A stretch of DNA of 64,000 bases, from contig JBBHKE010000498.1 in the NCBI GenBank assembly GCA_037447655.1, positions 1 through 64,000 on the forward strand, written 5' to 3'. Made by a program: the position numbers and the translations under genes. Origin of the DNA: Zygnema cylindricum (lineage: Eukaryota; Streptophyta; Zygnematophyceae; Zygnematales; Zygnemataceae). Positions within the stretch are counted from its first letter, which is position 1, and every line of letters begins with the position of its first letter. The notes below the pieces were generated by a model. That model had not been told where the DNA came from, made no database searches, and saw nothing but the letters and a program-made list of their open reading frames with translations. Positions 3,783-33,567 of this stretch are shown here, piece by piece.

Positions 3783-4384
3783 GTAAGGCACATGACATAA
3801 GGCTATATTGCTCGTCAAAAGTGTGCCCCACATCCACAACTTGTTGGATCGCCATAATCAGTTTTTAGAATTGATACGGAAGAATGTGTTTGAGAGTGTG
3901 GTATTATGGCTATGTTTCGCATCAACGTGGGCCCGAAACTTGTATGGCTTGAGAATCTTGTTATTCATCTGAAACGAAATATAATTTGTAAAGGAAGGTG
4001 CGAAAATATTTAACAATTAAATTACTTAAAAGTATATTTACAGTAATGAAAGTGAGAGTAATTAATAAAAAGTAGCATTAATTAGGAATCAAAAAAATAA
4101 TTAGTAAAGATGATAATAACAGTTATTATAGTCATTTATGATATTAAATGGGGGAAAGAAAAGGATTTTTAGGAGGAGAGGTATAGCGAAGGAGGCCAAA
4201 AAAGACCATTGAGATAGAGAGTTATGGCCCATTCTTGGGGGAAAGGGGAGTGAGAGAGAAAGTGGTGTAGGGAGTATTTCTAAGGGCGTTGTTTTGTAAG
4301 GGTTTATACAATATTTCCAGATATCAATTCAGTGGTCTTTAAGAAAACAAGATAATCATTACAATCGAAATAAATAAGAAACAG

Positions 4385-5960: not shown

Positions 5961-6120
5961 TCAGTATTAATAGTCGATAATAATGATATTTTAAGTGTCA
6001 ATATAAATACGGGCAAAACATATATACCTATATATCTGTTTCGGTTTTTTCGCCAATATTTGAGGTTTTTAACTTATTAAATTTTTTATCTTCCCCACGC
6101 AGAGTTAATTTTTCTTATAT

Positions 6121-6470
6121 TGTAGACTTTTTAAAGAAGTGGGTGTTGGTGTGGTGTGAATGTTCGATGTCAGAGAGCTGTACATAACAACCAGTTAGTT
6201 GTCTTTTTTTGGTTGTTTCAGTTGTTTCTCTTACTATTTTTTTTTTATTATTTCTATTTCTATTTCTATTACTGTTTCTGTTTCTATTTCTGTTTCTTTT
6301 TTTTTTTCTATTTCTGTTTCTATCGCTGTTCTTGTTACAATTTATGTTTCTACTTTTTTTTCTATTTCTGCTTGTTGTTTCTTTTTGTTTCTATTGTAGA
6401 CTTTTTAAAGAAGTGGGTATTGGTGTGGTGTGAATGTTCGATGTCACAGAGCTGTACATAACAACCAGTT
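6121..6470 (+). repeat. Partial duplication of an LRR exon edge around a TTTCTR microsatellite
   Basis: The 76 bp at 6121-6196 and at 6395-6470 are almost identical and contain an intron end plus the first codons of an LRR exon. Between them lies a (TTTCTA/G)n tract at about 6240-6390. Only the downstream copy continues into a full LRR exon. The upstream copy breaks off after the ccagtt of the LRR. A slippage or repair event at the microsatellite is a likely cause. Confidence 0.7.
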
Positions 6471-6520
6471 GAGTGGAAGCATTCCATTGTCCATCGGCCG
6501 ATTGCGACCCTCCATTACTT
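6450..6520 (+). CDS. Locus B exon: LRR, 71 bp and frame-breaking
   Basis: Starts after atgtcacag and encodes HNNQLSGSIPLSIGRL, then diverges where the other copies read SLREL. It is 71 bp instead of 72 and ends at a poor GTAGGA donor, so it would shift the frame of the next exon. This is one of the reasons to call locus B a pseudogene. Confidence 0.5.
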
Positions 6521-6880
6521 GTAGGACACATGACACGACAACTATGTTGTGCATCAGAAGTTTTCTTCACGTAAATATTGTTTGCCACAAAAGAAAAGTT
6601 ATCATTTTATGGATTTGAAAAACCAATTTGTAATATTTTTTTTTTTATCAATTGATATTTAAAATTATATTTGGGAGAGGGAGGGTAGGATGGTGGAGAG
6701 AGGGAGAGGGGTTGTGGGGATAGTGAGATGGGATTTTAGTATTTCGCTAGATTATTTGCTATAAAATAGTAGATTAATAGTGACAATGTTTGTGAACATT
6801 TTTATTTTTTATGCGTGTTGCCATGGATTTTCATGGCTTACCAAGTTGTTTTCTTTTACAATTGTGGGCCATGTCTACAG

Positions 6881-7164
6881 TGATATTACAAACAACTACT
6901 TCACGGGGCCGATTTTTAAAGGCAATGGACACCCAAACTGTGGAGAGTTGGGTGCCAATTGCCTGTTTGGCTCAAACCTCCCATTCGGGTGCGTATCCAA
7001 AGATCAACGAAGTAAAAGCAATTGTGAAGCGTTTTGCAATGCCACCCAAGTGGGAGGGCCTTGTGGGGAAGGCGGTATTTGCTCCAATGGCACGAATGGA
7101 ATTTCACGTATATGTACATGCAATGTCGGATACGATAATCAAGCGAACAAGTTCGTTTGCAAAT
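6881..7164 (+). CDS. Locus B exon: last LRR remnant plus cysteine-rich EGF-like module
   Basis: Begins after a tctacag acceptor with DITNNYFTGP, the end of an LRR, then a cysteine-rich segment with the motifs CEAFCNATQVGGPCGEGG and CTCNVGYDNQ. The order of cysteines (C..FCN.TQ.GG.CG..G.C, then C.C..GY) matches exon F of the main gene and the locus C exon. Start phase (one base) and end phase (one base left over) are also the same. The open frame runs on past 7164 to 7196, and the GTTATG at 7165 is a weak donor, so a terminal exon ending at 7196 is possible. EGF-like modules of this kind are extracellular. Confidence 0.6.
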
Positions 7165-12744: not shown

Positions 12745-12783
12745 ATGGCTAACATCTTGGCGACCATCATATTAAGAATATTT
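12745..12783 (+). CDS. Main gene exon 1 (tentative): start and signal peptide
   Basis: ATG at 12745 opens a hydrophobic stretch, MANILATIILRIF, that looks like a signal peptide. The frame must be changed to reach exon 2, and a GT at 12784 joins phase 0 to the acceptor at 12860 (caatag) across a 76-base intron. The donor (GTATTT) is not strong. If the site is wrong, another upstream exon or a start at the ATG at 12890 (no signal peptide) is possible. Confidence 0.4.
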
Positions 12784-15700
12784 GTATTTGCCACGTGTAC
12801 ATATCCAGCTAGACCTTTAAAAAGTTACATTGCAGTGCAAGATTGGAAGCTCTCAATAGATAAACACTGATGCTTATTGTGAATTCTCTATGGATGATGT
12901 GGGTCCAGAAAGCATCTTGTTGGAATTCAAAGCTGGATTGATCGATCCAACAAATAAACTTTCATTATGGAATGGCTCGCGCAACGTATGCTCTTGGTGG
13001 TTTGTGTCTTGTGAGAGAAAGATCGTAACCAAATTGTAAGCCCTTCAAATTTTTGATAGGTATAATATGCATCGTGTAAAATATATTACAACGTATAAAA
13101 AACTAAGAGAAATCAATTTCTTATTCATATAAAACAAAGTTATGGACATATGTAACAAAAATATAACTAGTCTGATAAATGTATGGTGATTTACCTAGCA
13201 AAATATTTCGATATTATAAAAGCCTCATTTCCTTTTCAGTGCAGCCCGTCCTAATTACAACAATGATACACCTCCCACGATTCTGAATTAGTCACTCACT
13301 ACTTCCCCAAGATGTATCTAAAATTTTTACATTGCATATTCATGAAGTTTGCTATCTGAAATTCTTAAAAATTTCTTCCAAGCAAATTTAATAAGACGTC
13401 CACCCAAAGAGGACTGAATGGAAGAAGATATTGAATATATTTTTTACCGATTTTCAAGATCAGGGAATAAGCAGCCAAGTGGATTTATCACAATTATAAC
13501 ACCCTTGTTTAAATCCTATTCTTTTATATAGGCAGCCAGGGCAGCCCCTCCCCTCGGATTAGCAATACAAAGAATGCCTAAACCCCTCCGTCAATCTTAA
13601 TCCTTTAATAGAAAAAATAATCAATTGGAAATGTTATCGGTTTTTCCTATTACCATCACTGAAATGCTTCGTAGAGGGGAAGTCAAGGTTCATAAGATGA
13701 GCCCGACCTGGCTCTAAAGCACCTTCCAGCGAAGAAGTACATTCTCTTCTCTATTTTGAGAGAAGATAGTGATTGGAAGACTTTTGACCATGGGGTAGCA
13801 TTCGAATTTTTATCAATGTTACTTGAACATATGTTGTACTATCCATACATTTTAACTCCAACACTCATGATTTTATATGCTCGTCTGATTGGTGGCTCTC
13901 GATATATGCACCAGTTGCACAAAGAATGAGTGATTCTCAAAGGCTCCTCTTTTGTGACGCAGGACACTCGCTGGGGCCGTCTCTGGAGGAACCATATCAG
14001 AAGCCATAGGCCTCTTGGATACGCTTGTAGAATTGTACGTGAAAAGATGGGCACTTGTTTAGGCTTCATTACAGAAAAATACATGTGTGTTAGAGACTAG
14101 AATTTGTGATACAATCTCCTTTTTTTGCATTAACAACTAATGAAGTAAAACCATTCATGACGGTTCAGAAGTTCTTTAATTTTTTTTTACTTTGATGGAG
14201 ACGGCGTTTAAAAAAAGATTTAATTACATGCTGTAACCTGATTATTACCATTTTTCAAAGATTCATCTTTCAGGGATTTATCCTTTAATAACTTGAGCGG
14301 ACCCGTTCCAACGTCTCTGGGAAATCTACAAAATCTTAGAATATTGTAAGCATAACAATTTTTCTTTCCCTCCCTCCAATTTCTCAAAAATGGCTGTATT
14401 AAAATTACATGTATGGCTGCTATCAATCTTTTTTTTTTGTGGAAGCACGCGTACATTTATAAAAATTGTATTTAGTGTGAAAACTTGTGGGATTTTTTTT
14501 AAGTGCAATAAAATCATAAGTGGAGGCTACCAAAGCTCATAATTTTGGTCATCTCATTTGAGCTGTCTTTTATTAGCACCTCTTTTTTTCTTGTCTTAAT
14601 CATTCCTTCATCGGCTTTTGCTTGTCTATTTAAATCTTCAATTCACAAGAAAAATATTATTACACAGGGTTTTTTATTACCCTAAAAAACCCTCCAGGTT
14701 TTCTCTGACTGATCGAATTAGCGAACTCGGGATGAGGGAATGTTTTCTGTCCGTTTGTTGCTGGCGGAACAGTTGTACAATTATCAAAAAATTTGAAAAA
14801 TGTATTTTTGTTGATTTTTACTGCTGGGACCCATGTGCACGCAACATTTTTTATTCCTCCAATCGGATTTTCAATCGAGAGGCCACGCCAGAGAGCGCGA
14901 CCCCAAAATGACAAATAAAATATGTCTTTACGAGTTGCAAAAACGGTCCTAGAGCCTTCCAAAAAGATAAAAACAAGTGTGATTATTGTAGGATTTTCAG
15001 TTAACATTAGTATTTAGGCGAATAAAAAAAAAGATGAAATGGAGTTTATTCAATGGAGTTAAGCCCATCGGCATGGCCCACAACTTGGCAACTTAAAAAT
15101 CCTAAAACTCGTCCAAATTCGTACTGGAATTTGAAGGTCATCTGGATTTAGATTTTCAAGTTTCTCTTTGTCGAAAATCTCATTGGATATTATGATCATG
15201 ACAATCGTTTTATCATTTTTTTTTTCTAAAGACATGGACAGTCAATTTCAGAGCAAACCATCTTCTTCATAACCAGAAACATTATTTAGAGTGTTGACAC
15301 ACAATTTGTAAATCGGCACATCGGCCGAGTGTTCACGCAGTAAAGAGCAACAATATGTTTGTATTCGGTCTTGTTAGTTTGGTACGGTCAATCTCACTCT
15401 ACTCTATTGACATGATTGTTGCTGTGCAGACGCCTCTCTAAAAACAACCTTATAGGTCCATTTCCCTCTGGTCTTACAAATTTACCAGCACTCCAACAGT
15501 TGTAAGTATTAAAAGTACCCAGACCCTCCATTTCTCTTTAAATCAATGTGGTGCACTTGTAAATTCTTCTGTTTAGCATCCCCAACGTATAATTTACAAA
15601 AATTGTGTTGGGTTGCATACTCATATGGAGATGAGTAGTGTTAGCTTCTGGCTAAAGGTCGATTGTATGCTGGGTCAGAGATGAGGGCGTTCGATTTTAG

Positions 15701-18700
15701 ATCTCAGGCAACTTCTTCAATTGAATGTTTCAGGTATCTGGATCAGAACAACTTCAATGGTATTTTACCAGCAAATATAGGCAGCCTCAGCAATTTGCGA
15801 ATTTTGTAAGTTGATCCGCGTTCTACCCAGATTTTTGGCTTTATTACAAAGAGATATTCAAGCTGTCGAGTTACTTTTGGACCGCAAAAGACCAAATTTC
15901 GCTTGCTTAACCTTTGATGGCGTATCCCGATTTCAATGCAGAGATTTGTCCTTTAACAAGTGGATGGGCACCATGCCCGCAAGTTTTTCTAGTCTTACAA
16001 AGCTTAAATATTTGTAAGTTACATATCTTTATTTTGTCTTTAGGCTTGAACGCGTTGACATATAAGCATTAACGTTGTAATGACCATTGTTGTCCAAAAC
16101 TTCAGATATTTTTTGGTACCTATAACTTGAAAAGTAAAAGGAACTCTTCCTTTTTCGTTTGGTTTACAAATTATAAAAAAAATAAAAAATCGGTTATGTT
16201 CGACTCCCCAAGAAAATTCGGACATTCTAAAAATCAACAATTTGGTTTTCTTTATTATTAATTTCTTCAAATATCGAAAGCTTTTTACTTTTTACATCTT
16301 CATCTAAAAATCGACTAATGTGGATGATGATGCATAGTCAAAAAAAATGATGCGGAGGGTCAAATATTGCATCCCAGTGGGGGACGCACCCAAGCTACCT
16401 AATATTAAAGTGGGCAACCGTGTTTTTGTGTGTGCATAATCTTGTTGAGTTAAATTTAAATGTGGTCGAGAGAATTCTTGCGTGGCAAATATTACAAGCG
16501 GGGAGACCAACAACGACCCATCCTTTACCTAGTGTCGTGGTTATTGCAGGAGTTTGCGGAACAACCTTCTCACTGGCGATTTCACTCTTGAACTCCAAAC
16601 TTTGGTGGACTTGAGAGTTGACATTAGCAACAATTTTTTCTCCTCATCGAGCATCAGGGTGAATAGCAATCCAGCTTATGCCATTGTAGAAAACAACTGT
16701 TTTGATGTTGACAACTCAACAATATGTCAAGGCCCAAACCCTGTCAGGAAAGATGTATGGGTTTGCGAGAGGTTTTGTAATACAACACAGCCTGGGGGGG
16801 TTTGTGGAGGTCGTGGCTATTGTATGGGTTTGGACGTGCCATGTACTTGTGACAAGGGGTACGCCACCGGTGAAAATAATGCAACTTGTACCTTCGGTAA
16901 GTAGCGTGTATTGTCTCACATGTCTCTTCCCTTTGAGAATTCAAAAATTTCGTCAATTGTTGTTTGTGCACGTTTATATGAATATTAAGTTCTATCAACT
17001 ACACGCTAGGAAGCAGATAAAGGCATGCTATACAAACGCAATAAAGTTGAAAAAGCAAGATGAACAATGAACCACTCAGGTTTTGCAAATGGAATTGGAG
17101 GCCTGATTTTATCATCTATAAAAAGGTGACCATATACCGAGCTACTAGACTCAAATAAAATAATGCTTAACCTTAGTTTCAATTTGATTTTGCAGAGGGA
17201 CGTGGTCTAGGGCTCAAAATTTTTGAAGGAGCAAAGCCTAAAAATTTGAACAGATATTTCCGCTACGTGAGCATAGGATACTTATTATCTGATAACGACA
17301 ACAAACCATCTTGGGCGGTTGCTACCAGCTGGAATTGGGTGAAACGACGAGCTGTAGCCCCAATCAAGGACCAGCAAAACTGCAGTAAAAGACGATTCCA
17401 ACATGGGACTTGTACTTAGAAAAGTGGTCAATTAAACCTTCACACATTGGTATAAAGCTGGTTATAGCTTTTACTATTATTTAGTCAGGCCATGAACCAT
17501 GTCTAGAGCTCGATGGAAAATAATTAACGTGCTTTGTGTGATTTCAAATTATATGTTATTGCAACAAAAGTATGAAATTCAGAAAACACCGCCCAGAATC
17601 GTCTTGGAAACAGAAAGATGAAATCAGGCCATTTAATTGATTTACATTCTGGTCACGAACATTATCAGTTTTTCCGATAACGATTTTTTGTTATTTTAAT
17701 AAATTAACATATACCTCAACAACTTGACCTGCATGTCTGGCACCTTTCATCGTGTATAATAATAGCAGCAAATTTTGTTTCTTAGACAGCACGAAATATC
17801 GAACCATGTAACCTTAACTCCACTTTGATTCAAAAACTAATGAACAACGTTTATGGCTCTTCCAGGCACTTCTTGGATCTTCGCATCCACTTCGGCTATT
17901 GAAAGTGCCGTTTACATTACAAATGCGGGAAGTTCAGATGTTCGGATTATTGCAGTGGAGCAGATATTGAACTGCTCAAGCTTGGCACGTGACTGCTCTG
18001 TCGGTGGATGGCCAACAGAAGCCCTCGACTATGCCTCGAAAAATCCCCTCATGTTGATTTCCGACTATACTCCAGGCATTTGCTCAGGAGAGCAAGTAAG
18101 TTTTTTACCCACATGCATTCGAGTTAAAACCAGGAAAAAAAGAAGTGAACAAAAAAACAAATCTCTCGATTCTATTCTCTTGCCACCCCTCTTCTCTTCT
18201 CCCCTCTCTCTTTTCCCTCTCTCCCTCGGTCCATCAAAAAGCCGATCAACTCGGTTTGAAATATGACCGATGCCACCTTTTTGAATGAATTCTGATTTCG
18301 GGTTTAGCTATTGTTTTGAACTGTTTGAACTTTTAAGCTTCAGAACAATTTGCTGTTTGTTCCTTTCGTTGGGTCAACATTTAAAAAATTTTGGAGACTA
18401 TATTCTTGTCATGGTATGAAATTGTAAAGTTTCTGGTCACATTGAAACGCCATGACTAGGTCGGTTTTTGCGGGAAAAATCTCAAATTTTTGTCACATGT
18501 ATTTTCCTGTGACTTCTGCCATGCCACTAAAATTTGGATTTTCCTGTTAGGACGGAGGGAGATATGCCAAGGCGCAAAACCAGCCGATTTGCCTACTTCA
18601 CCGAGAATTTCGGTTCATTAACTTTCAGTTCTAGTGTTAAGTTTTGTAGCATGTTTATGAAGATTTGCGCTATGTCGTCAGTATTTGTTGGAGTCCACCG

Positions 18701-21700
18701 GATGGTCAATTTTTTGTAACTAGTTAAGTGGCACATCCCATGTGATGTTGGTCTTTGGTTCGTTTAACAAGCTGCTACTTGGATTCTACAGATAAGAAAC
18801 TCGTGGACCATATCGTCTTTTGAGAGAATCCAGCTGAATGGCTGGCTAGGATTGCTTTTGGCTCTCCAACAGCAAACAGCAATCGTGGGCTTAGAAGCAA
18901 GTGGAAGCACTTTTCTGAATTATGGTCCCAAAATGGTGAGTTATCTTCAAAGTTGGTAAGCCAGTAAACCATCATATCGGATATGTTTTAGATGTTAGAA
19001 TTTGCGTTTAGTCACCTGTCAAACTTTTATACTCTCGTGAACCAAATTAGGTTGTTGAGACCTTATAGTCTTGCTTTCTTATTCTCCTTGGCTGTTATGT
19101 ATTTTTAATTCTCACCCATATCACTATATAGCCTAGAAAGAGCATCCGCGCAAGAGTATCCTTAAACTTTTCAGAGTCCCTCGTTTCCCCTTCAAGATCA
19201 ATTTAAATTCAGCATTCGATAATGGGGAGGTCCAGGTCAATAGTCTACAAACATGGTGAACTTTGAAAACTACCTATAGTAGGCGACTTGCCTGTTTCCA
19301 AAAAAACAAAGTGTTTCATCTTGAAAAAAAAGAAAATATGTGAATTCAAATTGTTTTGGAGGCAAGGTTTTGTTAAAAAAATTAGGAGTTGACAGTTTTG
19401 GGCCCACAACATGTCATAAGGCTCTCCCACTCTTCATTCTCTCTCTTTTTCTCTCTCTCTCTCTTTATCTCTCTCCCCCTCTCTCTCTCTACTCCATTCT
19501 CCTTGCCCGCTATATCTCGCCCCTCTCCTGTCTCTTTCCTCACTCTTTTTTTCTCTCCCTCTCTCCACTTTTCTCTTTCTCTCTCCCCTCTCTCTATGTC
19601 ATCTCTCCCTCTCCTCTCTCTCTCTCCGTTCCATGCTTAAAATTAATTAGGTTTGATCTTCCTGTGGTTCCATTTCCAGTGGTGGTCAAAGCAGCTTCTC
19701 TTGTCGATTTACCAATGGGGAAGGTGTCCTATTTCCGCGCATCAGTCCTACGCAGTACCCAGCCTGATTAGGTTCTTTCGGGGACAATTGTCCTTTAATA
19801 CTAATGTCCAAATTGACAATATCGTTTTTATCACGAAAATGGTTTGTGTAAGTGTGTCAATCCGGTCTAATTCGTGGCCTCTGACATTTTTTTACAGGGA
19901 GTGTTTGCTGATGAAAACTGTTTTTCCAATGGAGTGGACCACGCGGTCGTTGTGGTTGGCTATGATTTGGCCTACACTCCGCCCTATTGGCTCATTCGAA
20001 ATTCATGGGGCCCAAATTGGGGTGACAAAGGATACATGAGATTAAAAATTACTGGAGGACCCGGAATTTGCGGAATAAACACCTCGCCAGCACTTTTACC
20101 AATTGTAAATACTCCAAGTAAGATACTTGCTGCCCTTGGTGTTTACCATTCTTTCCACAGTGTATTATGTTTCAATTATTTGCTTGACTCAAAAGATAAA
20201 TTTTATTTTCCACTTTGTTCGTAATATCATCAACACCAACTTTTGAGAAATTTTCAGTCATAGATATTGAAAAGTAACGTATGTTGTTGTAAAAAGTTTT
20301 GATTTCTTGCCAGAAATGACTAAATCCTTTTCGGTTCCTTTCCATAACTATAAATCCTAACGCTCTCACTTTTGTAAAAAATAGAACGTTAAAGAGCCAG
20401 TATATAGGTTTGGTTGAAAGGTTGTTCACTCTTATAAGATTAACAACCCCAATTGTATCATGAGGATTATCCTCCAACTAAAAAAAAACGAAGTTTTGGG
20501 TGTTTGTGCTTTTCCCATTTACGCAGGCGACCCTTGTAGGCTAAACAATTCTGCAAAGATTAAGCTCAATGTGGCCAATGGTCCCGGCCTCATGAATCCA
20601 TGCGGCAACGGAATATGCATTGTGTCCGGCACAACCAATCTATGCAAATGCGGCGAAGACTTCATAGCTGTCACCAACACGGATGGGACGCAAACTTGTG
20701 CTCCAGGTTTTGTCCTTAAACTTCTACACGGTACTCTAGTTCATACGTTATCCAAGACAACACCGAGGATCGCTGTTGTCATAAAAAAATAAATGTTTAA
20801 GGAGCACGACTGTCGCACTTGTCATGTTTTTATTAGAGTTCTTGTAATATGTCCTTTAAACCAGCCCAAGTGGTGAGTTAATGCAAAATGTAGTCGTAAA
20901 AATTATAAACCAATTGTTCGCGTTTTTCACAAAGTATACCCTCCACTCGCTTTTCCAAATTTCACACATGTTTTTTGGATGTACGAAAACAAAAACTGTT
21001 GTGCGCAAATTTTCTTTCAAAGCCAGTGGGAAAGTGGTGGAAAAAGAATATGTGGAGGTCACGATAAAAAGTGTCATTTTTTGCGTTCTAGCCTCAAAAT
21101 GCCCCTTCCCTATTGCTGCGCATTTGGCCGCCATGGTTGACCATCATCGCTCATGGTGTTGACTACGGATGAGCCAAGACTACATTGGACGAAAAATTAA
21201 TGTAAAAAGAAACATTTATGAGGTTGGTTTTTTGAATAGCCATAATCCATATCCCAAGCAAAAACATAAAAAAGAATAAAAATCAGCCATGGATGGCGGT
21301 GAACCTCTCAACTTTCGTTTGATTTTATCTTTTGGTTTGCTATGTAAATTTAAGACAATCTCTCGTTGATGTTAACAACTTTACATGAGAACATCCCCAT
21401 CATTTCTGTGGTGTTCTCACTAAAAATGTCACAATTTTTCTGGAATGTTGAGTCACATATGGTGAGACGAAAATATTTCTATGGATTTTTTTTGCCACAC
21501 GACAAAATACAGACGCTAAATAGCAGCTACAGCAAAACGTCCAGTAAGTTTGGTACCATTTAAAATCAGCCTCCTCCGCTACACATTTCTTGTTAGAATT
21601 ACATCGTGCGAACTGGCATATCGGCCATGTTTTCATCTGTACGTTTAGTTTCGCTCAGTATGTTTGGTTTTATATGATATGTTGATTTCTTGCCGGTTAC

Positions 21701-24700
21701 ATGGCACTGCCTTCCGTTTCAGTAACGATGTATCTTAGTAAGCGAAACGTGTTTGTCTCATAGTTTGTGTTCGGAGGAAGTCTGTCCCTTGTGTTAGTGG
21801 GGAAAGTCTCAGCTTGGTCATTATGTATTTATTTTATACAGTTAGCTAACACTTAATCAGATTGTGAGTAGTGAAAAAAATTCTGTGTAAGGAGAAGATT
21901 GTAAGACTGAGCCCGAGGATAAAATCTCCACTTTAAACATGCGTGTTTCGCCGAGACCTTGTGTAATGATGAATGTTTCTGTGTTTTACTATGCATTTGC
22001 TGCGGACACTGTGTGAGGCTTAATTGCGTTCTCGATTCTATAAATCGGTGTCAGAGCGAAGCTGCAACTTCAGTTTGTGAGTGCGTGAAGGAGCTATGAG
22101 AGGACGGGAAAAAAAAAAAAACGGCCTCGCCATCTGGTCTTAGGACCATGTCGGAGCCTTCAAAAGATTCACGTTCTCCGGACGTGCCATCCCATAAGCC
22201 AAATGAGTTAGAGTTCCGTTTTGAAGGCGCAAAGTACAAAAAATGGCTTTTTTTTTATCCCCACGAATAGGATAAGTTCGGAGGCAACAACAATGTTGTA
22301 ACTGTCCCAGACATATGTTTGAAGATTGGTTGAGATTCGTTGAGGAAGAATGGTTGAGATTCCTTGATGAGAAAGGAGAGATGGGGAAGCAGGAAGAAGA
22401 AAAACCCGTGAAGGAGGAAGCGAGTTTGAATTCCGGGGACTTTGACAATTCAACGAGTGAAGGCAAGAAAGCGAAGAAAGAAAGAAAACAAAAAAGCCAG
22501 CAAAAAGTGGAGGGTGAAGATCTTGACATTGACAGCACGATAGAGAATGAGGTCAAAGTCCATCCTCTTCAATGGTACAAATTATGCCGTTTAAAAAAAG
22601 TTCATAAAATGACACCGTAATTTGAATAAATTATAGCAGGTCGTCCTTTGGGAAGAGCCGAAGCTAAAGGAAGAAGTTACTGCTGAAAGAAATCGTGGCT
22701 ACAACAGGATTGATACCGAGTTGCACGGATTCTATGCACAATCATTTTTTACTGCACGACACTGTTGATAAGTGTTGGAGGGCGCCAGAGAGTTAATTTG
22801 AGAAAGGTATCTTAGATTAGGGTCATTATGTTTTCTAGAGTTCTATGCAGTATAAGTTTGGGAGTAATTAGTCGACAGATGATGGCCTCAAGATGTTTAG
22901 TATTTTGGTTCAGTGATTAACTAGTCTTGGTAAGATGTTAAAGGAAAGTAACAAAGTAAAAGCATTTTTGAATAGCTTGCCTGATAAGTTCACACACCTA
23001 AAAATAAATTCTTCAGGCGAAAAGAAATACTGCTTTTGAGTTTGCAGTGAATTTCTTAAAGACAGTAGAGAAGTAGTCAAGAGTGATCGTCGAAGGTTCA
23101 GTAGTATAAGAAATTTGAATGTAAGCACACTTGAGAGCCGGAGCTAACTTCACTCAAAGAGAGAACGGTGCTAGACACACAACTAGAGTTCGGTGCTACC
23201 AGTGCCAAAGAGTCCAGTACTGGCTGCAAACTCCCGAGTAAGGACAAGAAATGTTGTCCAAACTGAACGAAGAAGGAAAAACAATGCTATTTTTGTGGGC
23301 GATGGGATACGTCAATGCTCAATGTTATGACCGTGGCAATGGTGGCTCTTAAATGGGCCTTGGTAAAGGAGACCAAGACCGTGGCTAAAGAGATTGAGGT
23401 TGTGGTCGTGGAAAGGGCCAATGTCGTGGAAAGGGCCAATGTCGTGGAAAATGTCGTGGTGGCGGTCGAGGAAATTATTTCGAGTTCGAGGATAATTCTA
23501 GAGACGGACCCTTTAACTTTGCCATTTCCCTGGACATTTCATTGGGTTCAGCTTGTGAGAACAAAAAGAAGACTACGGAATAGATAATTGACACATGAGT
23601 GACGCATCACGTGTGTACGGATAAGAATGTGTTGAGGATATGAGAACCTTAGCAATTTCGAAGGGGACTCTAAGGGCTAGTGGTTACGCCATTTCGGTTG
23701 ATCCGATGGAGACCTTCAAGTTGGACATGCCAGTTAGGGATTACTACGAGAATGAAAAAAGTTACAGCTGGTTTCATAACGCCTTGTATATTCCCAATGG
23801 CGCAGTGAACCTCGTCAGCTATTAGCAATTCGCAATTCGCAATTCGCAATTTTAAAAGGCTAACGCCCGAGTTATGGCGATGGAGGACTTTAGTATCGCG
23901 AATAAGAATTCTGAGGGGACATTGATTTGTAAAGGATCCGTGCGTACGTGAGTATGCACAATAAATTGGCGTGGAGGAGACTTAAGAGCAAGGCCAATCC
24001 GTGGGCTCGATGGACTACGTTCCAAGTAGAAAGGTGACGTGAGCTTGTGGCACCATTAGATGTGCCATACTTCTGAGGAAAACTTGAAATGGATGATTCA
24101 AAGTCGTTCATTGTATGGAATTGCAACCAGTGAAAAATTGAATGGTTGTGGAGGTTGCAATACGGTGGGCCAAGTTCAGAAATCACATCCGGTGAAGGAC
24201 GTCATGTACCAAGTTCGGACTCCCTTAAATCTCGTACGTGTGGCTTTTTGTGGACATGTGAAATTCATGGCCTTAGCAACAGCCAGAAATAAATACATCC
24301 AGCAGATGGTTGTTGAAACATCGTTTTTCCATAGTGTTCTTAAAGTGGAGGAATGTAAAATGTTCTTCACAGGTAGACGGCAAAACCTGGTATGGTGTGG
24401 TAACTGCAAAAGGCGTCGTACATGGCACCGAAACTGAAGCAGGCACCGAGGCCATGGTACCTACGACTACATAGTGACAGAATTCAGTTTTATAAGAACA
24501 ATGTTGAATTCCGAATTGTTTGTGGATAGTGACGGGGAAAATAAAACCATCTTTCACCCTTGACAAGGACGATTATATTATGGTATGTATACATTTTGGA
24601 CCGAATAAATGAGTTAAGAATGAACTTGACTATGTACTTCACGTGACAGATATGGGTAAAATGAAATATATACTAGGAATTCTCGTGATTCGGGGAACAT

Positions 24701-27700
24701 CAAGTTGAGTTGGCTTTAGTATTGTTAGAAGGTGTAAGGAGGTTTTGACGCAATTGTCCATGATAGACGCGAAACCACTTTCGACATGTTCAGACTTGAA
24801 AGTGCAGTCGAACAAGTCAAAGAATCTGGAAACAGTGAATGTCCCGTACAAGGAGCAACCGGGTGCCTCATCTCATTGATTATCAAGACAACGCTGGATA
24901 TTGCTATTGGAGTTTCAATGGGCAGGAGATATTGCCAAGCTGTGAAAAAGGTTCACGAGGAATTCGTTAAGTGAAATTTTTGGTACCTAGTTCGTACCCT
25001 GGGTATAGGGTTAATATTTCAATCACGAAGACCGTTGGACTGTTACGATATTGTGACGTGAACTGGGGCGAAACTTTTACTGTGACTGTTTGGAACAGTC
25101 TACATTTGCCTATGCTTTTCTTTTCGGTGGAGGCGTGGTTTCATGATGTTCTCGCCTCCAGTTGGCAATGGTGTTAAGTTCTACGGAGGTCGAGGACTAG
25201 GAATGCTTCAATTTAAATGTAATTTAAAGAGTGAGGATTTATTGTTGGGTGCGTGGAAATTTATTTGGACAGTATGAGTTTTATGGCGTTGGTAACAAAT
25301 CCAGTATTTCATAAGTGTATAAAACATTGAGTTGCATTTTTTTATAAACTAGGTGAGTATTAAGGCGTTGAAGTTCGGTTATATACCTACGGTTGAGGAA
25401 GCTGCAGATATGTTGACTAAACCTGCCATGCGTGATGTCTAGTTAAAGTGAGGACAGGTGATCAATATTCCCACGATGAGAGGGGGACTTGTGTAAATTG
25501 GTGTATCGCCCAAGTTTGCATATGTACTTTTGGTTTGGTACGGTGAATTTGGTTTAGCATGGTGTGTTGATTCGATGCTAGTTATTTGGTACCGTGTTCC
25601 ATGTCTAGTGCACGTTTGGTATCGGTGAAGATGTATCTTAGTAGGCACAACGGGTTTGTTTAGGTGTGGAACTCTGTCACTTGTGTTAGTGGAGAACATC
25701 TCGGCTTGGTCGTTATGTAATTCTTTTGTACAGTTGGTTAAGGGTTAATCAGATTGTGAGTAGAATGTTTATGTGTAAGTTGTTTAAGCTTCCGCTTGTA
25801 TTGTGAATTTTTTGTGCACTCTGTGTGAAGCTTAAGTTAGTTACCGATCCTATCATTTGCCCAGGACTTACTCTGGGCTGACATTTTATTTTTCGAGGCT
25901 TGTTGATTTCAATTTAATTAGCGTGGATTATAGTATTTGTTTGGTTTTACCTTCACTGTGTTTGCTATTACATTTCTTTTCCATGTTTGGAAATATTCCT
26001 TCAGGGTGTACCCTTGATTTTTGTCATCTCACCTAATGACAATGAATGGGACCACCGCAGGTTAGTATGCATGTGAACTCTGATTTCTCATGTTTTATTT
26101 AATGTCAATAACTACTCTATCGATTATTTGTTTTCTCAAATAATTTGTAAGGTGCTTCAAGGTTGCTCAATCGTTCTCAGTGCAGCCAGTTGGGCCAATT
26201 TTCTTTTCAGAAGACCCTCGTTTTTAAAAACTGGATAACCCGCAAAAATAATGTTGGAGACGCTAAATGATTGCGATAGTCACGGGAATTGGGCGAACCT
26301 ATTGTTTTGTTAGGTGTTTAAGTTAGGGAAAATATAAAAGAACCAAGAATCATTGCCTGTTAACTTTTCGAGAAACTCTTCTTGTCTTAGCAGACAAAAA
26401 TCTGATTCGCCCAAATTTGAAAAATAAGTCGCGTCAACCAGGCGTAAAAAAAAAAATTCACGAGTTTTTCTTTCATTCTTCCCGCACAATAATTTGTTTT
26501 TGTTTGCAATGGCCATGCGGCAATTTCTGAATGGCCAAAAATTTGACCTGCGTCATGCAATGGGCGCATCAATCGGGTCATTTGTGCAAAATGAGAATTT
26601 ATGTCCCAAAAAGGGCCCAATGAGTCCCATCCCTTGCAGGTTTTGATGTGCAGATCGAGAGCTTAACATTTGACATCTGGATATGCTGTACAATAGTGAT
26701 GTCTATAAGGATTTTGCTTTGGCGATGTATTTTGCATGTGCTACAGACCTTGTGGTTGTTGACCAATGACATGACAGACGTGTTTTTATGCCTTTGTTGC
26801 GTTAGAAAGTAGTAGAGAAATAAGAGCAAATGCCCATGGAAATGGAGAGCCCTCCCTTTGCCGAAAAAGTTAGCAAGCCAAAAAAATCGGCTAATTGAAT
26901 ATTAGTGTCCGTCACCATCATAACGTGCGACAGCCAAACGGACTAGTTTCTATTTCAATGGGTATTTTCCCTGCAGACGCCTTTTTCTACATAGAAACTG
27001 ATGCTTTATGTGGTCATGCAGCCAATCCGTGCATGTTTACCTCCAAAAATCCATGTGGCGTGGGAGTTTGCGTGAATTCTGTGGTTTATCCGGGAACCTA
27101 CCTTTGTGTCTGCCATATGGGCTATTCGGCGAGCGAAGCTGAGAACCTTCTTACATGTGTGCCAGGTCAGTACCAACGTACACCGTGTATCGCTATTAGT
27201 GTTAATATTTTTTTTGCCGCTTAAAACATCTTTTCTCCGTACACATTTGTCCGATTTTCAATGTGAGAGCGCTAATCGGAAGCTAAGAATCGTACCTTTA
27301 AATCGCAACCGTCATATCCACAATCCGACATGTGTGCACGAAGAAAACCTGTTTTAAGAGACTAAAAAAACATCAACACTAATAGCGATTCGCGGTGTAT
27401 TGAACTCACATGTGTGCCTGGTCATAGGGTGATTATTCATATTGTATTGCTACCGTTTTTTGGCTATTGTTACAAAAAAAATGTACGGTACGATATGAAT
27501 ATACAACTTTTTGTACGATTGTCAACGTCAAAAATAGCGTAGGTCGAGTTGCCCTACCAATTATAATGTAAACAAAAAACGAGCTCACACGTGTGTCAGG
27601 TAATAAACTCCCCTAGGTTTCTGACATGACAGAAAGCAGATTGGAGCGGCAATAGATAACTCGGTTATTTCACATGCTGTACAGTAGTATCTTTGATGAT

Positions 27701-29630
27701 TGAAACAGTTTGAATTGGTGCTACATTCAGATTTTTATCCGGCATGTGACGTTCGTACGACATCTCTAATCTATCCACCGTGGTCAATTTCTTACAGCTG
27801 TCATCTTCGGAGAAGCCCAAAACTATTATAGTGTGCCAGATAGTGGAAATGTCACCTGCAATACTATTTCCAGTGTGTATGGAATTTCAAAAATCGACTT
27901 CGCAAATCAGAATGAGGTATCAACATCTTTCTATGTCTTGTGTTATCTACTCCATTGTCGTTTTTCAAAAATTCAGTCATTACCTTATCCTTATCTAGCT
28001 TTTGCGTTTTAGTTGTTTTTTTGAATTGGCTTGTGTCTTATTCGTTAAAAAATAGAAAAGAAAAAAAAACGTGAACGCTTGGTGGAGCTCACAAAATTGG
28101 GATATTCAAAAGATAACAAGGATAGATGAGTAATCATCAGTGTGTATTTATGTGGACGCATCTGGTTAAAAATGTATGCATAAAAAAAAAATCTTTTATG
28201 CTTGTTTACGGTTCAATTTTTTTTGTAATCTCAACGGTTGGTCAAACCCATGTTCACGTGAAATACCTTCTTTTTGCTTAAAATAATAGCTAAATTAGAT
28301 ACATCTGAACACCAGAAGCCTTCCATCCAGTTAACTTGATCGGATTATTTTCGTTTTGCAGCAAGTGAACTGCAGCATCCCATTGTCTCCAGGAACAATT
28401 GTTAATGTGACTGCTTATCGCAACTGCTCTCTTCCATATACCATGGCTGAGGTCAGTTAATCTTTAGCATTGGCGCAGCAGTTGGGTGAAATGACAACAA
28501 GGTGCTTTTCCCAACACATAATGGATGCTAATTTTTTATTTCATTTTTTTTATGGAATTGTTTCCAACAATGCTTGCAATATTTTTAGCCTAAAAGACGT
28601 AATTTTGAGCACATTAAGAGTTTCTTCAATTTTTTTCTTCTTTTTAATCAGCTTTATGAGGCTGTCCATGATTTTTAATTGTGACTTATGTTCAATTAAA
28701 CTCTTGTTTTTTGCTTGCAGTGTGACACTTGTGCATCGATTCAGAATATGTTTAATCGAACAGCTCTCTTCGGACTAGAATCAGCAAACCCAGATGTTGA
28801 TTGCTTCTACCTTCAGCCGTTCCAGCAGGTTTGGAAAACATTCTGTTACTTCTGAAATGAAAAATTATAAAACGGAAGTTAAATGCACTTCAGTTGAGGA
28901 TTCACGTTGACTACTAACTACGTATATTTTGTCAATCTGATGGATTATTGTTTTCCAGGTCTGCATCGAACGAGGAAATCTTCCGTACCCTTTACCATGT
29001 GTGACGTTTTATGAAGTTAAACCAAAAGATACATGCAATTCTATTATTGCAAAAATTATGGATCCTGGTGTTGGGAAGCTTCAAAATACCATAAAGTTCT
29101 ACACGCTAAATGTCGAAATATTTTGCTCACGCGTTGGTACCTCTGTCACCTCTATGATAGGTCCTAATGAAGAGGTATGTCATAAAAAACGACAATCAAC
29201 AATAAGCCAGCCCAAGAGTCTGACATTGGCAGTCACGTCAACAAGATGGTCTAAAATTTTGTGCTTGCAATTCCTTTTCTGTTTTACATAATGTGTACAT
29301 TTTCTTATGGAATGAAATGGCGATGGATTTTATGAAATTTTGTGCTTACAACTCCCTTTCTGCTTTACACAATCCATAAATTTTGTTGAGGAGTTTTTTT
29401 GAATTCAGGTTTGTCTTGATGCTGGAGATTTGGGGTCGAGTAAGGCGAACTGTACAGGCAGGCGTTTTCGATTCCTCGAATTTTCCACGTGTGCAAATCT
29501 GAAAAAATGTTTCAGAAAGCCGGAAACGTTCAAACGGTTAAACAACTATGCGTGTTCAACCAATTATTTGCGGTCTCTTTGGAAAAAACCAGATCCCACT
29601 ATTTGTGTTTCCAAAGCTGGCCCATGTTAA
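12745..29630 (+). CDS. Main gene: secreted LRR - EGF - papain-like (Cys to Ser) - EGF - LysM protein
   Basis: I assembled 17 exons: 12745-12783 (tentative), 12860-13035, 14274-14345, 15430-15501, 15734-15805, 15942-16013, 16550-16896, 17196-17384, 17866-18095, 18792-18935, 19898-20117, 20527-20706, 26977-27165, 27798-27916, 28362-28451, 28721-28828, 28959-29174, plus the terminal 29409-29630. All join in frame with GT-AG introns and no internal stop, giving about 918 residues. Domain order: signal-like segment, LRR N-cap, LRRs, EGF-like, C1A papain fold, two EGF-like, three LysM-like. No transmembrane segment or kinase follows, so the protein is probably secreted and apoplastic. LRRs usually bind proteins, and LysM binds GlcNAc polymers such as chitin or peptidoglycan; the ligand here is unknown. 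The papain nucleophile is Ser. The intact frame across 17 introns argues for a live gene. Confidence 0.85.
12860..13035 (+). CDS. Main gene exon 2: LRR N-terminal cap
   Basis: Encodes a standard plant LRRNT: a Cys at the front (DAYCEF), then ESILLEFKAGLIDPTNKLSL, then W-N-G and the pair VCSWWFVSC before ..VTKL. The stop codon just before 12860 in this frame forces an acceptor there, or a start at the ATG at 12890. The exon ends in phase 2 at a GTAAG donor, as plant LRRNT exons do. Confidence 0.85.
13225..13690 (+). repeat. Dispersed repeat inside intron 2, second copy at about 48.87-49.35 kb
   Basis: This stretch and 48870-49350 share ordered blocks in the same orientation: ttcc..tgcagc.cgtc, ttctt.tatagGCA.CC, cctaaacccct, ccaattggaa and gctatcgg-type runs. 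Identity is moderate and gapped. The second copy lies just upstream of a gypsy pol relic, so this may be a gypsy-derived fragment, but I see no coding motif. Confidence 0.5.
14274..14345 (+). CDS. Main gene exon 3: LRR
   Basis: 72 bp, phase 2-2, between ttcag and GTAAGC. It encodes DLSFNNLSGPVPTSLGNLQN and ends LRIL, a textbook 24-residue plant extracellular LRR (LxxLxxNxLSGxVPxxLGxLxx). Confidence 0.9.
15430..15501 (+). CDS. Main gene exon 4: LRR
   Basis: 72 bp, phase 2-2, between gtgcag and GTAAGT. It encodes RLSKNNLIGPFPSGLTNLPA and ends LQQL. Canonical LRR spacing. Confidence 0.9.
15734..15805 (+). CDS. Main gene exon 5: LRR
   Basis: 72 bp, phase 2-2, between tttcag and GTAAGT. It encodes YLDQNNFNGILPANIGSLSN and ends LRIL. 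Confidence 0.9.
15942..16013 (+). CDS. Main gene exon 6: LRR
   Basis: 72 bp, phase 2-2, between tgcag and GTAAGT. It encodes DLSFNKWMGTMPASFSSLTK and ends LKYL. The usual Leu after Asn-Asn is a Trp-Met here, a mild departure from consensus. Confidence 0.88.
16550..16896 (+). CDS. Main gene exon 7: last LRR and first EGF-like module
   Basis: Begins with SLRNNLLTGDFTLELQTL, the last LRR, then DISNNFF, then a cysteine-rich segment. Key motifs are CERFCNTTQPGGVCGGRG and CTCDKGYATGENNATC. The C.C..GY ending is typical of EGF-like modules. This exon is homologous to the exons at 6881 and 45009. It ends in phase 1, where the EGF-type exons begin. Confidence 0.85.
17196..17384 (+). CDS. Main gene exon 8: linker and start of the papain domain
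   Basis: 189 bp, phase 1-1. About 45 linker residues (EGRGLGLKIFEG...) lead into SWNWVKRRAVAPIKDQQNC, which aligns with the papain N-terminus (..W(R)..GAV.PVK.Q..C). Gln19, which forms the oxyanion hole, is present in KDQQNC. The linker is too short for the roughly 100-residue papain propeptide, and no ERFNIN motif is visible. The exon ends after the codon for Cys22. Confidence 0.85.
17866..18095 (+). CDS. Main gene exon 9: papain active-site helix, catalytic Cys replaced by Ser
   Basis: Joined to exon 8, it reads C-STSWIFASTSAIESAV, where papain has C-GSCWAFS...A.E. The catalytic Cys25 position is Ser (codon TCT, 17871-17873). Trp26 and Phe28 are kept. Further on come EQILNCSSLARDCSVGG, matching the conserved EQ.L.DC....GC.GG with both cysteines of the disulfide. 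The fold is therefore kept while the nucleophile is changed. The exon ends in phase 0 at GTAAGT. Confidence 0.88.
18792..18935 (+). CDS. Main gene exon 10: papain domain, central part
   Basis: 144 bp, phase 0-0, between tctacag and GTGAGT. It encodes LLLALQQQTAIVGLEASGST and FLNYGPKM. This matches the papain stretch LL.AI..QPVSV.LEA.G..F..Y..G, and joins directly to GVF at the start of the next exon. Fit to the family is strong here, which is why I prefer it to a competing open stretch near 19.7 kb. Confidence 0.85.
19425..19640 (+). repeat. Intronic (CT)n-rich tract
   Basis: The intron before exon 11 holds about 215 bp of ctctctctcttt-type low-complexity DNA on the + strand. The open frames through it (Ser/Leu/Pro-rich) are composition artefacts. 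Confidence 0.85.
19898..20117 (+). CDS. Main gene exon 11: papain domain, catalytic His and Asn
   Basis: 220 bp, starting after tttacag with GVFADENCFSNGVDHAVVVV. The His of VDHAV is the catalytic His159, and the Asn of RNSWGPNWGDKGYMRL is Asn175. GICGI near the end matches the C-terminal G.CGI of papains. The exon ends in phase 1 at GTAAG. Confidence 0.92.
20527..20706 (+). CDS. Main gene exon 12: EGF-like module
   Basis: 180 bp, phase 1-1. It encodes a cysteine-rich module with NPCGNGICIVSGTTNLCKCG and ends TQTCAP. Six cysteines are visible in an EGF-like order (C..C.NG.C....C.C......C). The exon is symmetrical and codes for just one module. Confidence 0.85.
21592..25855 (+). mobile_element. 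Degenerate Ty1/copia element in intron 12
   Basis: Two diverged LTRs flank it: about 21592-22042 and about 25490-25855, sharing runs such as gatgtatcttagta, cttgtgttagtgg and taatcagattgtgagtag. A primer-binding site resembling the plant initiator-Met type (tcggtgtcagagc, 22045-22057) follows the left LTR. A polypurine tract (gatgagaggggga) precedes the right LTR. In order I see gag (22315-22617), a broken zinc knuckle (CYFCGRW, about 23287), an RG-rich segment, a protease remnant (THHVCTDKN, about 23600), the integrase zinc region (SEENLKWM at about 24070), and RNase H ending EEAADMLTKPAMRDV (about 25395). Most of the RT is missing, and stops and frameshifts are many. Confidence 0.85.
22045..22057 (+). 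promoter_or_regulatory. Copia primer-binding site
   Basis: The run tcggtgtcagagc sits just after the left LTR and differs little from TGGTATCAGAGC, the site complementary to initiator-Met tRNA used by many plant copia elements. Confidence 0.6.
26977..27165 (+). CDS. Main gene exon 13: EGF-like module
   Basis: 189 bp, phase 1-1, after ccctgcag. It contains NPCGVGVCVNSVVYPG, preceded by CMFTSK, then LCVCHMGYSAS and LTCVP. The pattern C..NPCG.G.C....Y.C.C..GY is EGF-like and parallels exon 12. A MITE is inserted only 15 bp downstream of its donor. Confidence 0.85.
27181..27397. mobile_element. MITE with long TIRs and TA flanks (family copy 1)
   Basis: 217 bp with imperfect terminal inverted repeats of about 75 bp that begin CACCGTGTATCGCTATTAGT on the left and, reverse-complemented, CACCGCGAATCGCTATTAGT on the right. 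Both ends abut TA (27179-27180 and 27398-27399), which suits a Tc1/mariner-like target site. No transposase. The copy at 55289 has the same ends and shares the middle as well. Confidence 0.85.
27798..27916 (+). CDS. Main gene exon 14: first LysM-like module, N-terminal part
   Basis: Encodes FGEAQNYYSVPDSGNVTCNT and ISSVYGISKIDFANQNE. This fits LysM: a Y.V..G....I...Y.IS...L...N core. The intron splits the module, which is completed by the next exon. Confidence 0.8.
28362..28451 (+). CDS. Main gene exon 15: end of LysM 1, start of LysM 2
   Basis: 90 bp, phase 0-0. QVNCSIPLSPGTIVNV completes the first LysM (N...C..I.PG..V.V), and RNCSLPYTMAE opens the second. The cysteines are of the kind seen in plant and fungal LysM proteins. 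Confidence 0.78.
28721..28828 (+). CDS. Main gene exon 16: LysM 2
   Basis: 108 bp, phase 0-0, between ttgcag and GTTTGG. It encodes CDTCASIQNMFN, then ESANPDVDCFYLQPFQQ. DTC.SI...F....L...NP.V.C..L.P...VC is a good match to plant LysM with its conserved cysteines. Confidence 0.85.
28959..29174 (+). CDS. Main gene exon 17: LysM 3
   Basis: 216 bp, phase 0-0. After VCIERG it has CVTFYEVKPKDTCNSIIAKI, the Y.V..GDTC.SI start of a third LysM. Its middle (TIKFYTLNVEIFC..) is longer than usual, with an extra stretch before PNEE, so this module is less regular. Confidence 0.78.
29409..29630 (+). CDS. Main gene last exon: cysteine-rich tail and stop
   Basis: Starts VCLDAGDLG, which closes the third LysM, and goes on as a basic, cysteine-rich tail (CANLKKCFRKPETFKRL) to a TAA at 29628-29630. 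There is no transmembrane helix or GPI-like hydrophobic end, so a soluble secreted product is likely. The terminal exon boundaries rest on the ttcag acceptor and the open frame. Confidence 0.8.
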   Translation, partial: VCLDAGDLGSSKANCTGRRFRFLEFSTCANLKKCFRKPETFKRLNNYACSTNYLRSLWKKPDPTICVSKAGPC

Positions 29631-31149: not shown

Positions 31150-33567
31150 AAGCTTTAGACTGACTAGTCTCTTAACCCACATGCATCCCTACAGAATTCT
31201 AATTTGGGTGTGGGTAGAGGTTTTGTCATCATGTCAGCAACCATTTGCTCATCCGGTAAATAACTCAGCTTCAGGACTTTTCGCATCACTTTCTCTCTCA
31301 CAAAATGCAACTTGATGTCAATGTGCTTACTGTTAAAGTGATGGCTTGGATTAGATGCAATTGTTATGGCTGCCTGATTATCACACCACACTATTTGAGG
31401 TCCAGATTGCATAAAGAGAAGCTCTTGGAAAAGAGACTTTACCTAAAGCAACTATTTAAATGCCGAGCTGGCAGCCATGTACTCAGCCTCCATGGTAGAC
31501 TGAGCTGTGACCTTCTAAAGTTTGTTGCTCTAGCAGCAAGTTCCACTTCTGATCTTCAGAATGTATCCGGTGGTGGAGCGTCGGCTGGGCATATCTTCAT
31601 AACTCGCATCACTCCAAGAATGAATTTTGACTTCCTCTCCACCCAGTGAGAGTCTAAGACTTCGAGTTCCTGCAAGATAGCGAAAAACTCTCTTTGCTGC
31701 CTCCTAGTCTGACTTCCTCGGATTTTGCAAGCTTCGGGTCAAAGCTCCAACCGCGGCTGCGATGTCTGGATGAGTACAGTTCATGAAATAAATGAGACTT
31801 CTGACAATATGCCTGTAAGGAATAGAGGACGTAGAATCTGCCTCCCCTAAATCCAATAAATCATCAACCAAAACACCACCATCCGTTTCCGTACCCTCCA
31901 ACTTCTGCCTGAATTCCATAGGGGTGGCACTCCCATTTGCTTCTAACATGCCAAACTTTTCTAGCATGTTCCAGATTGCTTCTTTCTGAGTTAAATAAAT
32001 AATTCACTGTTTCCTATCTCTTTCTACCAGAATTCCAATGATATACTTTGCCTCACCCAAGTCCTTCATTTCAAACGGAGAATTTAGAGCTGCTTTTATT
32101 TTATTAATTTCATTGATAGATTTGCTAATCAACAACAAATCATCTATATACACTGCCACATAAATCACTCCATCCTCACCTTGCATTACATAGACTAGGT
32201 GATTTGAAATGATCCTGGTAAAGCCAAGATTGGGTAAAAACTCATCTAACTTCAGGTTCCATTGTCTCAAAGCCTGTTTCAGACCATACAAGGACTTCAA
32301 CAGTTTACAGACCAGATTTTCTTTTTCTTTTTCTGCATACATCTGTGGATGCTTCATATAAATTACTTCCTCTAAATCACCATACAAGTAAGCGGTCTTA
32401 ACCTCCATCAGATGCTGTTCCATATCCTCTATTGCAGCAAGAGACAACAAAACTGTAACAGTAGGAAAGTGAACCACAGGAGAGAAGGTCTCTTCATAAT
32501 CAATTCCCTTCTTCTAACTTAATCCGTTAGCAACAAGTCTAGCATTATATCTCTGAATTGTATTATCAAGATTCAATTTTAATTTGAAGACCCACTTACA
32601 ACCGATAGCTTTGCGATTCGGTGAGAGCTCCACAAGTTCCCAAGTTTGGGCTTCCATAATTGACTTTATCTCATCATTTGCAGTCGAGATCCAATAATCC
32701 TTTTCAAGAACTGAAAAGCTTCCTGAATAGTAAGCGACACCCCTATGCTTGCAAAAAAAGCACTCTCCACTCGGTCGCCTGGAAAGCGGCTACTTTGCCT
32801 TCTTTCCTTGTGAAAATCAGACGCGGGTATTGTTGGTCCCCTAGTGTGCCGCAGAGGGCGTATAGTGGTAGGAGCAGCTCAAAAAGTAAAATTTGACGCC
32901 CCAGAGGCATTTGGCAAAGATGTAGAGGTAGTAGAAGGAGACAGAGTTAAAGGTACCTGCTCAAGAATGATATTCTTTTGTATTTTCTCATTCCTTTCAG
33001 CTGCATCCATACTAAAAACATCCACAGATTGACTCTCTTCTTTAATCTGAATATTCTAGGCTGTCTGAAGGCATCCTCTTTGAGGATTATACACTCTATA
33101 ACCTGCAGATTCATCATCATAGCCTAAAAAGACACCAGCTACAAATTTTGGACTAAGCTTCCAATTAGGAAGATTATCCAAGAAAAAACATTTTCTACTA
33201 AAGGCTCGAAAATGACTGATATTTGGCTTTCTGCCTGTCCATACCTCATAGGGTGTCTTACCCTTAACACCTCGGTTTTCCACTCTATTTCTGATGTAGG
33301 AAGCACAATGAAAAGCTTCCCTTCAAAACTTTGGATCCACACCTTTATCGGCCAGCATCGAGGGAGCAAATTCAGTCAAAGTTCGATTGAGTTTCTTGGC
33401 CACACCATTTCGTTCTGGTGTGTACAGACCAGTAAGTTCACGAGAGATGCGATTTTCTTTCAAAAATTTAGCAAAGGCATGGGATAGCATCCGTCCGCAA
33501 AGCAACAATAGATTTGCCGTGAAGTTTCTCCGCCCAGATTTTGTATTGTTGAAAGTGAGTTAAGACT
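31150..33567 (-). pseudogene. 5'-truncated Ty1/copia pol (integrase, RT, RNase H), broken
   Basis: Reading the minus strand from 33567: the integrase core (about 33562-33323, with IWAEKLHGKSIVALRTDA), ERNGVAKKLNRTL, the integrase C-terminal part (GVKGKTPYEVWTGRKPNISH), then RT (32477-32004) with SLYGLKQALRQW and the YIDD active site at 32150-32139. RNase H follows (VWCDNQAAITIASNPSHHF, then MVADMMTKPLPTPKLEFC). Frames are broken by stops and shifts, so it cannot make a full polyprotein. Gag and protease are absent; the element is cut at about 33567. It belongs to the same lineage as the array at 57.5-64 kb. Confidence 0.88.

Follow-up and report, generated by a model that had tools for sequence, protein, structure and literature searches.

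We examined a locus in a stretch of 64,000 nucleotides of the Zygnema cylindricum genome (assembly GCA_037447655.1, contig JBBHKE010000498.1, positions 1 to 64,000; hereafter the window) that encodes leucine-rich repeats (LRRs), epidermal growth factor (EGF)-like modules, a C1A papain domain and LysM modules. Gene structure, paralogs and homologs leave us almost certain that this locus is one gene, a real and well-formed member of a family that shares its architecture. Judged by sequence comparison, this is a large gene family, and all the named relatives that we found are zygnematophyte algae. The window copy carries serine at the catalytic cysteine position of its papain domain, and has in all probability lost ordinary cysteine-protease chemistry.

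An LRR-EGF-papain-EGF-LysM gene and its family

The gene model consists of 18 exons on the forward strand (12860-29630) separated by 17 introns, all of them GT-AG. After splicing, a single frame is open for 929 codons and the remaining two frames are stop-rich; five LRR exons are exactly 72 nt each and in phase 2. The 929-residue product runs from LRRNT_2 and plant-type LRRs through an EGF-like module, the papain domain and two further EGF-like modules to the LysM modules. A preliminary description of the locus had joined the 18 exons in frame into one protein, and the intron boundaries, the open frame and the colinearity of the paralogs bear this out. It had also placed the start at 12745, which we could not support: an in-frame TAG lies immediately 5′ of 12860, the 18-exon model has no start codon, and the 39-nt exon that would supply the start and a signal peptide (MANILATIILRIF) splices in frame but is, by eye, unconserved among the paralogs. 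In one paralog region (C1949) a stop codon falls within the 5′ part of exon 1. The 12745 start is therefore no more than a possible candidate.

Pfam matches of the window model exceeded the cut-off for Peptidase_C1 (E 1.9e-35, 123 bits; the papain domain is complete by profile), LRR_8 (E 5.9e-15) and LRRNT_2 (E 1.1e-6), a single LysM match sat exactly at the cut-off (E 3.5e-4), and the EGF-like modules all fell below theirs. Scanned individually with Pfam, single LysM modules were weak. A profile built from the LysM-like modules of homologs and applied to the window tail gave three well-scoring modules, at residues 698-734, 740-787 and 798-844, in agreement with the three previously proposed. 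A fourth, at 883-909, scored weakly with this profile (independent E value, i-E, 0.025), and one shuffled tail did not match it. The model, whose N-terminus is incomplete, did not match the I29 prodomain (PF08246), and granulin was not among the 15 Pfam families listed for it. Nor was there a kinase match in Pfam or, by hydropathy, a strong hydrophobic stretch (best 19-residue mean 1.37), consistent with the contrast drawn earlier with receptors that end in a membrane anchor or kinase. In the homolog P0001, a single inner window is hydrophobic (mean 2.1); it lies within the first LysM module, where a membrane span is formally possible. N-termini were hydrophobic in all seven homologs checked; from these, and not from the window gene itself, we infer that the family proteins are secreted, as had been claimed for the window product.

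The window's own assembly (352.8 Mb, 2689 contigs) contains many relatives. A papain search returned at least 150 matches (150 of 303 candidates scored) and a search with the LysM tail at least 170 (150 of 463 candidates scored). All 18 exons are colinear in six of ten paralog regions (C235, C1822, C845a, C2153, C1949 and C1930), with per-exon identities of 47-93%; the remaining four are partial or order-broken, with exons absent from the 10-kb stretches or LRR exons cross-matching, and one of the four contains 2500 N. In partial lists comprising 95 entries (one present twice) of the 150 papain matches and 51 LysM matches, at least 33 of the 51 LysM matches have a papain exon no more than 19 kb upstream on the same strand, one more has such an exon at 25.6 kb and 17 are without; the count is a lower bound, and some of the 17 have further papain matches nearby (C2033, C2015, C70). 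The C1822 region (L018/L019) also holds a partial tandem duplicate: downstream of its complete copy the last two LysM exons occur again, at 16235-16339 and 16507-16725 in the coordinates of the joined, oriented region.

Outside this genome, relatives were sought by protein searches, for which candidates had to share words with the query; two of these were profile searches and covered the best 120 of 367 and the best 120 of 1038 matches. Plain LRR proteins dominated the results of the profile made from the full alignment (A2), and one from proteins without LRR annotation (A3) was used instead. Among the matches listed in the A3 search, ordinary papains, nearly all with an I29 prodomain, rank below or among the weakest combined proteins, and none of the proteins combining Peptidase_C1 with LysM or a lectin carries I29 in the best 120 of 1038. 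Proteins with Peptidase_C1 plus LysM or Lectin_legB came, among the matches listed, only from Mesotaenium, Closterium and eukprot transcriptomes; no land-plant protein with this combination was among them. The same module order was found in single proteins: P0001 from eukprot, a complete transcript open reading frame (ORF) of 1041 aa with 37% identity to the window over 97% of the searched part, and the unannotated proteins P0009 (Mesotaenium, Mesen1 ME000065S09001) and P0013 (Closterium, CLOP_g13511). Some Closterium members carry Lectin_legB, in some cases also or instead of LysM, between the LRRs and the papain domain; P0006, for example, reads LRR, lectin, papain, EGF-like. Given the legume lectin in these members, glycan addressing may be a repeated theme, as their domain content suggests.

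The order of modules had been called unusual and undescribed. It is not singular, being common to the paralogs and to the Mesotaenium, Closterium and eukprot proteins, and no published description of an LRR-papain-LysM architecture was found in the literature listings searched on Zygnema, Closterium and Mesotaenium; the family-wide LRR-EGF-papain-EGF-LysM architecture is apparently undescribed. One study reports 209 Pfam combinations that occur in Zygnematophyceae only, and counts 26 architectures with Lectin_legB (PMC11096116); the terms LysM and cysteine protease are absent from its main text, and its supplementary tables may contain the combination. The accessible parts of two further papers (PMC11289646, PMC9915684) do not mention the architecture, and a study of the Penium secretome, in the sections available, names cysteine proteases and not this architecture (PMC6027541).

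Among known families, the plant C1A papains (PF00112) resemble the window copy in fold, catalytic His and Asn and overall sequence (best PDB matches: protease omega and caricain). The window copy differs from them in lacking an I29 or granulin match, in the added LRR, EGF and LysM modules and in its catalytic serine. RD21-type plant papains are granulin-tailed. With LysM receptor kinases and proteins it shares LysM modules, and the likeness to LRR receptors and PGIP comes from the model of the homolog P0001, whose LRR domain is structurally like those of FLS2 and PGIP (a PDB comparison covering the LRR part); unlike the receptor kinases, the window copy has no kinase match and, by hydropathy, no strong membrane-like stretch. 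Animal TINAG and TINAGL1 belong to the cathepsin B-like branch, and the descriptions available to us do not mention LRR or LysM modules in them.

Serine at the catalytic position

The window copy reads NCSTSWIF where protease omega and caricain read SCGSCWAF, so that serine occupies the position of the catalytic cysteine; the catalytic His and Asn are retained, as judged by this alignment and by the paralogs. The full papain fold claimed in the preliminary description is borne out by profile, but this substitution had been overlooked. All nine paralogs in which the catalytic exon was found have cysteine (TGT or TGC) at this position, versus TCT in the window. A DNA motif run over the genome, which detects exact-matching copies only and serine only through TCN codons, counted 23 copies with Cys and a single one with Ser, that of the window.

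We then read the position in 93 homologous proteins carrying the family's EGF motif. A motif reading that allowed nine residues gave 43 Cys, 19 Ser and no other residue among 62 readable proteins (31 were unreadable); reading by local alignment gave 38 Cys, 21 Ser and one Gly, with 33 unread, and found the catalytic His in 90 of 93 and the Asn in 92 of 93. The Gly reading, in P0045, is likely a gene-model error. Serine is found in five Mesotaenium proteins (P0009, P0051 and P0200 by motif, P0011 and P0257 by local alignment) and in the Closterium P0201-P0206 and P0091 groups. The window copy shares its module order with P0001, P0009 and P0013 and its serine with the five Mesotaenium proteins; among the readable relatives Cys is commoner (43 of the 62), and some Closterium members have Lectin_legB. 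A tree was built from 78 papain domains, the catalytic residue being masked in the 72 rows that belong to the family. In it, a clade of 11 Closterium rows has Ser throughout, and explaining the Cys/Ser label takes 8 changes, of which well-supported branches force 6; long branches leave parts of this tree unsure. Because the tree nests the window copy among Cys paralogs of its own genome, serine has an origin of its own in the window copy, and the change is a recurring one in the family.

The Plasmodium SERA proteins resemble the algal family in being multigene and generally tandem, with Cys- and Ser-type papain-like members (PMC7132891, PMC4671257, both seen in part); they come from a distant organism, and the descriptions seen do not mention LRR or LysM modules. 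The SERA trait of serine at the papain catalytic cysteine position is present in the window copy, a likeness of working and not of membership. SERA5, a Ser-type papain-like member, is described, in the part available, as having no detectable protease activity and an indispensable non-enzymatic role (PMC4671257).

Coordinates of the gene and other features of the window

Features of the gene on the forward strand, with the basis of each assignment
Feature	Position	Strand	Basis
Exon 1, LRRNT_2 cap	12860..13035	+	splice model, Pfam
LRR exon, 72 nt, phase 2	13963..14034	+	splice model, paralog comparison
LRR exon, 72 nt, phase 2	14274..14345	+	splice model, Pfam
LRR exon, 72 nt, phase 2	15430..15501	+	splice model, Pfam
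LRR exon, 72 nt, phase 2	15734..15805	+	splice model, Pfam
LRR exon, 72 nt, phase 2	15942..16013	+	splice model, Pfam
Final LRR, cap and first EGF-like module	16550..16896	+	splice model; EGF-type models under cut-off
Linker (no I29 prodomain match) and start of papain domain	17196..17384	+	splice model, Pfam
Papain exon with catalytic position	17866..18095	+	splice model, alignment
Codon TCT, Ser at catalytic Cys position (TGT/TGC in 9 paralogs)	17871..17873	+	
Papain exon	18792..18935	+	splice model, Pfam
Papain exon, catalytic His and Asn retained	19898..20117	+	papain search, Pfam, alignment, paralogs
Exon 12, second EGF-like module	20527..20706	+	cysteine pattern; no Pfam match when scanned alone
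Degenerate long terminal repeat (LTR) element in intron 12, Copia-like by eye	21716..25763	+	repeats, intron length
Third EGF-like module	26977..27165	+	PF00008 E 0.0011, slightly below cut-off; paralog comparison
LysM module 1, first exon	27798..27916	+	Pfam, LysM-like profile
End of LysM 1 and start of LysM 2	28362..28451	+	Pfam, LysM-like profile
LysM module 2	28721..28828	+	LysM-like profile
LysM module 3	28959..29174	+	LysM-like profile
Diverged fourth LysM-like module and stop codon	29409..29630	+	weak profile score; fourth such unit in homolog P0001

Intron 12 measures 6271 nt in the window versus about 0.2-2.7 kb in the ten paralogs, and much of the extra length of the window gene is due to its Copia-like element, in which two diverged LTR pieces (84% and 80% identity) can be made out. 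Copia-type pol fragments, several of them broken and all called by eye from reverse transcriptase and RNase H motifs, lie at 31164-32789 (-) and at 57466-58662, 60281-61639 and 62841-63404 (+).

Upstream, the region 2500-7160 (+) has LRR-type stretches at 2500-2568, 3712-3783 and 6463-6507 and an LRR-cap/EGF exon at 6882-7160 resembling exon 7 (35% identity, E 1.6e-12). Upstream of 12.8 kb no stretch matches a papain exon significantly, and the region is perhaps an LRR-EGF gene without the protease. A 1.4-kb purine-rich tandem array of the GAGAGAGG type, with extreme strand skew, occupies 4468-5906. Downstream, at 43992-45282 (+), a second combination of this kind joins an LRR (43992-44063, weak) to an EGF exon (45013-45282, 30% identity, E 8e-13), and an in-frame stop interrupts the part that matches.

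Proposed working and alternative readings

Our overall reading, a secreted glycan- and protein-binding papain-type family in which the window copy acts as a scaffold or decoy without proteolysis, has in our judgement about an even chance of being right. Secretion would bring the proteins to the cell surface, wall or mucilage, where LysM modules would anchor them on N-acetylglucosamine (GlcNAc)-type or other glycans of microbes or of the alga's own cell coat; in some Closterium members the legume lectin may take the same glycan-holding part. The LRR face would bind a partner protein, and in Cys members the papain domain would cleave proteins at that surface. For this secreted, glycan-addressed role of the family, as predicted from its modules, we see the balance as level. 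The Ser copy, with fold, His and Asn kept, would most likely not cut and could serve as a binding scaffold or decoy beside active siblings, much as the pseudoprotease SERA5 of malaria parasites accompanies Cys-type SERAs. The papain domain had earlier been offered as effector or scaffold: since serine stands in place of the catalytic cysteine, scaffold or decoy is favoured over effector for the window copy, though nine of nine paralogs read keep Cys. By analogy, then, the scaffold or decoy role is put forward tentatively.

The family may instead serve the alga's own wall, mucilage or mating and not defence, which is quite possible though not our preference. The extracellular-type architecture would suit such a role, as would the Penium cultures, in which secreted wall proteins occur with two annotated cysteine proteases, one of them predicted to be vacuolar, according to the part of the study available (PMC6027541). 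Nothing specific speaks against it; the frequency of LysM, LRR and large families in defence is an objection by analogy.

That the window copy became a pseudogene only recently, or is a relaxed member whose frame is open by chance, is unlikely. Such a history would fit the loss of the catalytic cysteine, a conserved Cys of exon 7 that is Tyr in the window, the large LTR-element insertion in an intron, the failure to find a start or signal exon and private substitutions somewhat above those of most near siblings. However, all 929 codons are open with every splice site intact, and the ratio of nonsynonymous to synonymous substitution rates (dN/dS) on the window branch is 0.35-0.39 for the whole protein, with all intervals below 1. 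For the papain domain the window branch gave 0.24, 0.27 and 0.49 in three triplets, one of the three intervals being uninformative. Private substitutions in this domain, with sister paralogs excluded, fall within the range of Cys siblings (9 versus 10, 3, 10 and 26; in a second set 10 versus 3, 4, 13 and 24). This pattern argues for constraint on the window copy and not free decay.

Several observations weigh against our overall reading. The start codon and signal-peptide exon of the window copy were not found, either at the 5′ end of the model or by paralog comparison, its LysM modules are diverged, and it is known from genome sequence alone. Two Cys branches have papain-domain dN/dS of 0.14 and 0.07; the window is nominally higher, and some relaxation of its papain domain is possible. 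In a first count it deviated at 26 of 419 otherwise invariant positions. The corresponding figures were 6-9 of about 400 for five close paralogs, 14-29 of 338-418 for four more distant paralogs and 8 of 233 for C845b; most of the close paralogs had a sister among the sequences compared, and this lowers their figures. With sisters excluded the window stands at the upper side: it has 37 of 513, where nearer siblings have 31, 12 and 31 and C1930 has 82 of 558. A second sister-free set gives 32 of 476 for the window versus 20, 18 and 43, and 70 of 514. The excess in the first count having thus shrunk toward the sibling range, we discarded faster evolution of the window copy.

Serine-type enzyme activity of the Ser copy, based on a Ser-His-Asn centre, is improbable. 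Serine is the sole replacement of Cys among the 62 of 93 motif-readable homologs, His and Asn are kept, and sponge silicateins are a known Ser-bearing example. However, in SERA5, the closest studied analogue, the part of the report available states that proteolytic activity was not detected with serine (PMC4671257). Finally, that neighbouring LRR, papain and LysM genes were mistakenly joined, as the 6.3-kb intron with its LTR element between the second and third EGF-like exons might suggest, has a negligible chance, because the paralogs keep the exon order, with a shorter intron at that place, and homologs occur as single proteins that bridge both sides (including the transcript-derived ORFs P0001, P0004 and P0084), which rules out separate genes.

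More broadly, and as a doubtful proposition, the sister lineage of land plants may possess lineage-specific, much duplicated extracellular proteases that are self-addressed by LysM or legume lectin together with LRRs and that repeatedly spawn Cys-to-Ser decoys guarding or regulating active siblings, as a surface-defence or wall system. We know of no counterpart of such an enzymatic system in land plants. If this is true, the algal kin of land plants would have built a protease and receptor-type recognition modules into a single secreted molecule that was then greatly expanded, instead of relying on kinase wiring. The recurrent change from Cys to Ser, with His and Asn kept and a like architecture, provides a natural test set for the origin of pseudoenzymes in protease families.
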